Source: Oscillospiraceae bacterium (lineage in GTDB: Bacteria; Bacillota; Clostridia; Oscillospirales; Oscillospiraceae). Taken from it: DNA of 64,000 nt. Positions 56,107 through 58,362 of this stretch are shown here, in pieces; within the stretch, counting starts at the first letter, position 1; every line of letters begins with the position of its first letter. The position numbers and the translations under genes are program-made. A model generated the notes under the pieces. The model was given only the letters and a program-made list of their open reading frames with translations, was not told where the DNA came from and did not search any database. Location: NCBI GenBank assembly GCA_902778115.1, contig CACYWG010000015.1:1-64000 (forward strand). The letters run 5' to 3'.

Positions 56107-56181
56107 TCCTTATATGCAAAGCGGGAAAACTGTGGTATATTGATACATACCAAAATTGACCGCAGTAAAGGAGGATCCGGG

Positions 56182-57483
56182 ATGGAAAGCATCAACCGTG
56201 AACTTCTGGACTTTATTGACAAAAGCCCCACCGCCTGGCACGCCGCGGCGAACATCGCCGCCGAGCTCGAGCGGGCGGGCTATACCCGCCTCTATGAGGA
56301 AGAGGACTGGCAGCTGCGCGCGCCCGGTAAATATTACGCCGTGCGAAACGGCTCCGCCCTCATCGCCCTGAACCTGCCGGAGGAGGCCGACGGCTTTCTC
56401 ATCATGGCCGCGCACGGCGATTCCCCCGCCTTCCGCGTCAAGGACGGGGGCGAGGAAAAGACTCTCGGGCTTTACAGCCGCCTCGCCGTGGAAAAATACG
56501 GCGGCATGCTCTGCAGCACCTGGCTGGACCGCCCGCTGTCCCTCGCCGGCCGCGTCGCCGTGCGGGAAAAGGGCGGCATCACGATGAAGCTGGTGAATAT
56601 CGACCGCGACCTGCTCGTGATCCCGAACCTCGCCATCCACATGGACCGCTCGGCCAACGAGGGCAAGAGCTTCAACGTCAACGTCGACATGATCCCGCTG
56701 ATCGGCAGCGCCGAGAGCAAGACCGGCCTGAACGCCCTGATCGCCGGGGAGCTCGGCGTGAAGGAGGAGGATATCGTCAGCCGCGAGCTGAACCTCTATC
56801 CGCGCACGCCCGGCACGGTCTGGGGCGCCGAGAACGAATTTATCTCTGCGCCGCGGCTGGACGATCTGCAGTGCGCCTTCGGATGCCTGAAGGGCTTTCT
56901 GCAGGCGGAAAAGCCGAAAAAGGCCACCGTTCTGTGCGTCTTCGACAACGAGGAGGTCGGCAGCGGCACCCGCCAGGGCGCGGATTCCGGCTTCCTGGAC
57001 GATATGCTCAGCCGCGCCTGGGCTTCCCTCGGCCGCACGGACGCGCAGTACCGCGCGGCGCTCGCGGGCAGCTTCATGGTCTCGGCCGACAACGCCCACG
57101 CCATCCACCCCAACCATCCGGAATTTGCCGACCGCAGCGAGCGCCCGGTCATGAACGGCGGCATCGCCATCAAGTTCAACGCCTCCATGAGCTATACGAC
57201 CGACGGCCTCTCCGCCGCCGTGTTCTCCGAACTCTGCCGCGCGGCCGAAGTGCCTGTGCAGCGCTATGCCAACCGCCCCGACCTGCGCGGCGGCAGCACG
57301 CTGGGGCATATCAGCCTCGCGCACGTGTCGGTGCCGACGCTGGATATCGGCCTTGCGCAGCTGGCGATGCACTCGAGCTATGAGACCGCCGGCGCGAAGG
57401 ACACCGAATATCTGGTGCGCGCCGCCCGCGCCTTCTATGAAAGCGGCTACCGGGTCAATGGAGAGCGGATCGCGCTCAGCTAA
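56182..57483 (+). CDS. M18-family aminopeptidase
   Basis: The ATG at 56182 follows AAAGGAGG. The 433-residue protein has the M18 metal ligands: AAHGDSPAFRVK, FDNEEVGSGTRQGADS and, near the end, the histidine-containing LGHISLAHVSVPTLDIG. M18 enzymes are dodecameric zinc aminopeptidases acting on acidic or other N-terminal residues; B. subtilis and clostridial members are often called probable M18 aminopeptidase 2. It is followed after 12 bp by the solute-binding lipoprotein gene, so the two are probably cotranscribed. Confidence 0.95.
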   Translation: MESINRELLDFIDKSPTAWHAAANIAAELERAGYTRLYEEEDWQLRAPGKYYAVRNGSALIALNLPEEADGFLIMAAHGDSPAFRVKDGGEEKTLGLYSRLAVEKYGGMLCSTWLDRPLSLAGRVAVREKGGITMKLVNIDRDLLVIPNLAIHMDRSANEGKSFNVNVDMIPLIGSAESKTGLNALIAGELGVKEEDIVSRELNLYPRTPGTVWGAENEFISAPRLDDLQCAFGCLKGFLQAEKPKKATVLCVFDNEEVGSGTRQGADSGFLDDMLSRAWASLGRTDAQYRAALAGSFMVSADNAHAIHPNHPEFADRSERPVMNGGIAIKFNASMSYTTDGLSAAVFSELCRAAEVPVQRYANRPDLRGGSTLGHISLAHVSVPTLDIGLAQLAMHSSYETAGAKDTEYLVRAARAFYESGYRVNGERIALS

Positions 57484-57495
57484 GGAGAATCATCC

Positions 57496-58305
57496 ATGAA
57501 ATGCAAGAAAATCCTCTGCGCGGCGCTGGCGCTGCTGATGCTGCTGGCACTGACCGCCTGCGGGGAAAACATGTCCTATAAGGTGCGCAGCGTGACCACA
57601 CTGGTGGAGCAGGAATACTCCCTGGCCTTCCGCAACGACGATCCGCTGCGGGACTATGTGGTGGCTGCGATCGAGGAGCTCAACGCCGAGGGGCGCGTCG
57701 AGGAACTCAGCCGCAAGTGGTTTGGCCGCAATGCCGTCGACTTCGGCAAAAAGGCGGACGCGCTGTCCGCGCTCGAGCCGCCGGAGCCGCATACCCTGCT
57801 GCTGGGCGTGGACATCAACTCCTTCCCGATGGCCTATATGCAGGACGGCAACTTCTGGGGCTTCGACGTGGAGCTGGCCGGTTTCGTCTGCGACCGGCTG
57901 GGCTGGACGCTGCAGGTGCTCTCCATCGACAAGGAAAACGTCTATGTCGAGCTGTACTCCGGCAATATCGACGTGGCCTGGGGCGGCGTCGCGCTGGACC
58001 AGAAGGAGCTTGACGCGGGCCGGTACACGCAGTACGGACCCTATATCGAAAACGACATCGTCGTCGTCACCCGCGACGGCTCGCGCATTTCCGGCGCGGG
58101 TGGCCTGAAGGGGAAGACGATGGCCATGCCCACCACGCCGGAGGCCACCGCCGCGCTGGAGACGCAGCCGAAGCTGATGGAGAAGCTCGGCCAGATCAGC
58201 CGCATGCCCGGCGGCACCACCGACTGCTTCGCCGCGCTCTATGCCGGCGACTGCGACGCCGTGCTGACCGATTCCACCGCGATGCTGTACTACAACTCGC
58301 ACTGA
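57496..58305 (+). CDS. Amino-acid-binding-type (SBP_bac_3) lipoprotein with apparently permuted domain order
   Basis: The 269-residue precursor has a lipoprotein signal (LLALTACGE, lipidated Cys22). Residues 38-77 (EYSLAFRNDDPLRDYVVAAI...LSRKWFG) match what is normally the last part of an SBP_bac_3 domain. From about 100 the start of that domain follows (LLLGVDINSFPMAY, GFDVELAGFVCDRLG, VELYSGNIDVAWGGV), and the protein ends at DAVLTDSTAMLYYN, exactly where the usual C-terminal segment would begin. It thus looks like a circular permutation or a tandem-domain gene that lost its ends. No permease or ATPase gene is adjacent. Ligand, probably an amino acid, is unknown. It is followed by a terminator. 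Confidence 0.8.
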   Translation: MKCKKILCAALALLMLLALTACGENMSYKVRSVTTLVEQEYSLAFRNDDPLRDYVVAAIEELNAEGRVEELSRKWFGRNAVDFGKKADALSALEPPEPHTLLLGVDINSFPMAYMQDGNFWGFDVELAGFVCDRLGWTLQVLSIDKENVYVELYSGNIDVAWGGVALDQKELDAGRYTQYGPYIENDIVVVTRDGSRISGAGGLKGKTMAMPTTPEATAALETQPKLMEKLGQISRMPGGTTDCFAALYAGDCDAVLTDSTAMLYYNSH

Positions 58306-58323: not shown

Positions 58324-58362
58324 CGGAGGATCTTAGGAATCTCTAAGATCCTCCGCTTTTTT
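58324..58362 (+). terminator. Rho-independent terminator after the lipoprotein gene
   Basis: CGGAGGATCTTAG-gaatct-CTAAGATCCTCCG followed by CTTTTTTG. Confidence 0.92.

Follow-up and report, generated by a model that had tools for sequence, protein, structure and literature searches.

The window, i.e., the whole stretch of 64,000 nucleotides that was analyzed, contains on its forward strand, at 57496–58302 (followed by a stop codon), a genuine open reading frame coding for a lipoprotein of 269 amino acids. The ribosome-binding site AAGGAG (57482–57487, +), as read from the sequence, overlaps the stop codon of the upstream gene (56140–57483, +), which codes for an M18 aminopeptidase (Pfam PF02127, 386.9 bits). 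The two genes are separated by 12 nt and are probably co-transcribed. A strong terminator-like hairpin of the intrinsic type, comprising 14 base pairs and followed by a T run, lies at 58324–58355 (+). A functional tie to the downstream EcfA1-A2-T genes was considered but set aside; their adjacency is taken as coincidence, because RlmI-EcfA1-A2-T-TruA recurs as a block and because no ECF importer is known to employ solute-binding proteins (SBPs).

The 5' end of the lipoprotein gene (57496–57561, +) codes for a signal peptide with the lipobox LTAC, whose cysteine to be lipidated, Cys22, corresponds to 57559–57561. C22 and G23 are invariant in an alignment of 53 sequences. Downstream of Cys22, the protein continues with YKVRSVTTLVEQEYSLAFRNDDP...KWFG and a linker, and the normal start of an amino-acid-binding protein is found at residue 99. 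Residues 28–80 (57577–57735, +) constitute a moved element which normally forms the C-terminus of such proteins, comprising the cross-over strand, the last strand, and the helices up to KWFG. Residues 81–98 (57736–57789, +) form a new, confidently modelled linker which bridges the former C- and N-termini; its residue L90 is almost invariant in the 53-row alignment. The normal N-terminal half (lobe 1) with the pocket positions D106, K146, and E171 follows as residues 99–192 (57790–58071, +), and lobe 2 with the pocket positions E216 and D259 as residues 193–269 (58072–58302, +). The protein ends at residue 269, at the point where the C-terminal element would ordinarily come next, in agreement with the preliminary description, according to which the chain starts normally at about residue 100 and stops before that element.

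Several independent searches reproduced the swapped order. In the Pfam profile search, the protein matched SBP_bac_3 (PF00497) with 68.8 bits (curated cut-off, 26.4 bits), the main match aligning residues 103–220 with profile positions 3–98; a second, separate stretch matched as well. Residues 34–79 align to positions 217–263 of the 266 positions of the NCBIfam model PRK11260, i.e., to its normal C-terminus. Sequence matches in the PDB are split in two, with the order swapped; for 8hnj, residues 102–266 and 35–82 correspond to positions 3–161 and 176–224, respectively. A profile of the C-terminal element made exclusively from relatives with canonical order scored 30.6 bits against residues 23–99 (match 35–77), while 2000 shuffles reached 9.6 bits at most, and it gave no match to the true C-terminus of the protein. 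The proposal that residues 38–77 represent the normal C-terminal end of SBP_bac_3 proteins is thus upheld by PRK11260, the PDB matches, and the canonical-relative profile, albeit for a slightly longer segment of about residues 28–80. The canonical order, lobe 1 – lobe 2 – C-terminal element, is absent from the protein as encoded and emerged only when the parts were rejoined accordingly. The rejoined sequence yielded a single GlnH match (26–246 of 248), the score increasing from 64.3 to 75.7 bits, and a single ArtJ match from end to end, with an increase from 61.7 to 74.1 bits. The product of 57496–58302 is almost certainly a circular permutant of an SBP_bac_3 (cluster F, amino-acid type) solute-binding protein.

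Conservation, operon context and ligand pocket

Full-length orthologs with the same order, sought as proposed in the preliminary description, turned out to be abundant. They are present in 56 of the 61 genomes of the genus, to which Candidatus Limivicinus belongs and whose genomes are all draft or MAG assemblies, and share 51–94% identity. Among their bearers are Candidatus Limivicinus faecipullorum and numerous Oscillospiraceae MAGs from rumen and gut, and each of the five genomes without an ortholog has a completeness of ≤84%. All 56 orthologs are single-domain proteins. Among the window protein and its two closest relatives, dN/dS amounts to 0.15–0.16; in wider pairs, it is 0.39 for the moved segment as compared to 0.37 for the whole mature protein. 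The protein is under purifying selection, the moved segment being constrained like the rest.

The M18 gene is a conserved neighbor in part of the genus, as judged from synteny. The neighborhoods that were mapped (80 recovered) showed no ABC permease or ATPase genes at the locus. In 56 of these 80 loci (L123 and 55 others), a gene for a membrane-anchored, beta-lactamase-like PF13354 protein is located upstream of the permuted SBP gene, often between the latter and the M18 gene; it is absent from the window. The protein encoded by L123:2851–4986 has a long acidic tail.

Proteins with the order of the window protein, C-terminal element – lobe 1 – lobe 2 (type A), are common in other genera of the family and occur there in ABC operons. 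Type A proteins can be the sole SBP of an SBP-permease-ATPase operon. Many complete operons have a permuted protein as their only SBP, hence the permutation is compatible with transport. Type A proteins also occur as second SBP (SBP2) closing polar-amino-acid ABC operons of the type SBP1-permease-ATPase-(racemase)-SBP2, in which SBP2 often follows the racemase gene; sister-genus operons ending in SBP2 are L181, L184–L190, L192–L196, L199, and others. When a tree was built from rejoined sequences, the window protein fell into a supported clade (98/93) comprising 38 proteins of type A; where the operon of a clade member was available, that member was its second SBP. The SBP1-permease-ATPase-racemase operon is kept elsewhere in 29 of the 61 genomes of the genus, its permease sharing about 80% identity with the L186 permease. 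In all four mapped loci (L282–L285), this surviving operon lacks SBP2, which, together with the occurrence of SBP2 at the M18 locus, indicates that the gene has become detached from that operon. In this genus, the permuted SBP2 left the importer and was kept as a stand-alone lipoprotein beside the M18 aminopeptidase.

The racemase of these operons (L186:5919–6746, L185:2994–3809; also L181, L184, L189, and L282–L285) is HisR/CntK/DapF-like; it is akin to the histidine racemases HisR and CntK, scoring under their curated cut-offs. The conservation of this racemase gene within polar-amino-acid ABC operons suggests that uptake is coupled to amino-acid racemization.

The positions of the ligand pocket were tentatively assigned by sequence alignment to the ligand-site numbering of GlnBP. 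The α-amino-acid fingerprint is incomplete in the window protein: D10 and D157 are kept, but F50 is replaced by K, T70 by A, and R75 by E. Loss of the aromatic residue, Thr, and Arg of the fingerprint is common to the SBP2 clade. In the remaining type A proteins, as in type B (lobe 2 – C-terminal element – lobe 1; cut between the lobes) and canonical ones, the aromatic residue, Thr, and the final Asp are mostly retained, and Arg often is. In the alignment, which is dominated by the genus, K146, E216, D106, and A166 are almost invariant and D259 is invariant. A pocket that is conserved yet different argues for a ligand that is conserved yet different; with the α-carboxylate-binding Arg and the aromatic residue replaced, the ligand would most likely be other than a plain α-amino acid.

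Eight genomes of the genus, among them G023 (95% complete) and G030 (92%), lack an HEQR permease scoring over the curated cut-off, although incompleteness of these draft or MAG assemblies could explain any single case. The permuted gene is the only SBP_bac_3 match in G023, G030, G019, G047, G006, G040, and G021. The genome that harbors the window has just one further SBP_bac_3 gene, which codes for a three-module fusion with a permease, the modules having the type B order; this fusion is G000:C30 (L062:3104–6160).

We consider it probable that the gene product is a permutant which was detached from its importer operon and now is a stand-alone receptor, binding or presenting a changed ligand. 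As to its role, a ligand-binding lipoprotein which is anchored via lobe 2 and independent of the polar-amino-acid importer is the best-supported account and one we are inclined to accept; it would act as a ligand-binding or presenting receptor without need of a polar-amino-acid ABC permease. The main rival is an ordinary transport component, i.e., an orphan second SBP serving an ABC permease encoded elsewhere, with a neutral permutation. It would be in line with the closest relatives in other genera, which close SBP1-permease-ATPase operons, with the persistence of such an operon in 29 genomes of the genus, and with the use of permuted proteins as sole SBP of complete operons. However, nearly all genomes of the genus have the gene but only about half have the operon, eight genomes harbor the gene but no HEQR permease over the cut-off, and the amino-acid fingerprint is lost. 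We therefore regard a remote permease as rather unlikely.

Predicted fold and membrane tether

The AlphaFold2 model of the receptor candidate, calculated as a monomer from the 53-row alignment, has a pLDDT of 93.2 and a pTM of 0.84; the pLDDT values are 96–98 for residues 31–80 and about 96 for the linker. The predicted structure is a two-lobed type II fold, as had been anticipated for a true circular permutation, and it strongly predicts that the moved segment completes lobe 1 within the same chain. The best matches in a Foldseek search of the PDB are amino-acid SBPs, with TmArgBP among the nearest structures; the alignments are limited to about 170 columns due to the order dependence of the aligner. 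Among the best 60 PDB matches, there is no solved chain in which one single domain covers the whole permuted profile; the two wide matches, 6h30 (tandem SBD) and 4q0c (BvgS tandem), cross a tandem junction.

The C-terminal strand and helices which ordinarily complete lobe 1 are synthesized first, the ordered linker of about 20 residues joins them to the old N-terminus, and the element is predicted to dock in cis. Since the chain is opened just past lobe 2, both the lipidated N-terminus and the new C-terminus would be located at lobe 2, and the protein would be anchored to the membrane via lobe 2 rather than lobe 1.

Docking of the N-terminal C-element in trans would instead give a domain-swapped dimer. 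In Thermotoga ArgBP, the C-terminal helix is domain-swapped, which has been attributed to a shortened loop with a proline residue (PMC4022495). Terminal elements attached by a linker lend themselves to swapping, and TmArgBP is among the nearest structures; the confident monomer model and its ordered linker speak weakly against a swap, as AlphaFold2 was run as a monomer only. We deem such a dimer improbable.

The preliminary description had also considered a remnant of a double-domain protein, and the same genome does encode, at another place, a tandem SBP array of three modules fused to a permease (L062, G000:C30). At the locus itself, no two-domain homologue was seen in the 80 neighborhoods recovered. 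A non-functional remnant of a tandem SBP is contradicted by the intact, single-domain, same-order orthologs in 56 of 61 genomes and by purifying selection, and a complete fold is confidently predicted; we give this reading hardly any credence and retain circular permutation. An artifact of assembly or annotation fusing two genes, conceivable in a genus represented by draft assemblies throughout, is ruled out for practical purposes by the identical junction in 56 assemblies at 51–94% identity and by the occurrence of this protein type in another genus, in a genome assembled as one contig (G174, L244).

Other chain orders and known binding proteins

At least three cut points were observed among the relatives of the window protein, resulting in three orders besides the canonical one. 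Type B lipoproteins (L182:4713–5495, L197:7134–7937, L063:2778–3566, L246–L257) serve as the only or the first SBP in amino-acid ABC operons; the model of the L182 protein has a pLDDT of 90.4 and a pTM of 0.78. In apparently equivalent operons, the first SBP is, depending on the genus, canonical (L229, L199, L195) or of type B (L182, L183), with 62–65% identity. A third cut, inside lobe 2, is found in L307:3035–3898 and L308:2796–3617, which code for lipoproteins and lie in SBP-permease-ATPase operons of more distantly related bacteria of the phylum. SBP-permease fusions with one to four tandem SBP modules of type B order are encoded by L062, L066, L067, L068, and L259, and tandem SBP proteins are a possible kind of evolutionary intermediate.

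On a tree of 93 proteins (232 columns of rejoined sequence), the labels type A, type B, and canonical require 11 changes (9–12 in 300 bootstrap trees; mean of 34 for shuffled labels), and at least six changes for type A are forced by well-supported branches alone. The frequencies of the orders are unrepresentative, as the sample was gathered via homology to type A. Canonical and permuted proteins which are neighbors in the tree resemble each other in all three segments, indicating permutation of whole proteins rather than swapping of single segments. A phylum-wide scan of 220 genomes revealed one more full-length type A match outside the family (G450), the other top matches covering the lobe 1–lobe 2 part only or being otherwise partial. 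Permuted binding proteins are thus widespread among gut Clostridia related to the genus and have arisen repeatedly. It is conceivable, and we propose it tentatively, that permutation is recurrently tolerated in clostridial SBPs and that one copy in this genus now acts independently of a transporter, as a receptor or enzyme which is anchored via lobe 2 and whose pocket has been rewired.

SBP_bac_3 binding proteins are two-lobed, have a fixed topology, and are very well studied, and recurrent permutation is unusual for such a family. Canonical and permuted forms, 45–65% identical, fill equivalent places in similar operons; natural homologues may thus be used for a direct comparison of how binding and delivery depend on the order of the chain and on the lobe that is tethered. 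The window protein would be a case of a permuted binding protein outliving its importer. As profile searches cut permuted SBPs into two matches, such proteins can look fragmentary. A description of permuted SBP_bac_3 proteins was not found in the literature searched, the coverage of which excluded most subscription journals.

With GlnH/GlnBP, ArtJ, HisJ, and TmArgBP, the window protein shares homology over the whole chain once rejoined, the lipoprotein nature, the predicted two-lobed type II fold, and relatives located in polar-amino-acid ABC operons. It differs from them in the order C-terminal element – lobe 1 – lobe 2, the predicted tether via lobe 2, the replacement of the pocket Arg, Thr, and aromatic residue, and a locus devoid of a permease gene. 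The type B (L182, L197, L063) and third-cut proteins (L307, L308) are permuted lipoproteins of the same family, encoded in SBP-permease-ATPase operons, but are cut between the lobes and inside lobe 2, respectively, whereas the window protein is cut past lobe 2.

Permutation of SBPs in nature is already known in principle from type I sugar-binding, betaine-binding, and molybdate-binding proteins, and the permuted SBP_bac_3 proteins represent a new variant. Glycine-betaine-binding (OpuAC/ProX group) and molybdate-binding proteins were recognized as a circular-permutation family by structural comparison with CPSARST, at identities under 24% (PMC2395249), whereas the permutants and canonical forms described here are close homologues with 45–65% identity. 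The type B model aligns with OpuAC in order and nearly end to end, albeit loosely (274–281 columns, rmsd 8–9 Å). TpMglB-2 (Tp0684) of Treponema pallidum, designated 'Type Ic / Cluster Bc', is a lipidated, naturally circularly permuted SBP with two lobes, has homologues in Gram-positive gut bacteria, and was proposed by its authors to owe its permutation possibly to membrane anchoring; it has a type I sugar-binding fold whose three initial N-lobe strands have moved to the C-terminus, and its glucose binding was demonstrated experimentally (PMC4990184). The window protein resembles TpMglB-2 in being lipidated and in combining a rotated chain order with a canonical two-lobed fold, here deduced from the sequence order and the model. 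However, its best matches are SBP_bac_3 and type II amino-acid SBPs, setting it apart from the type I sugar family.
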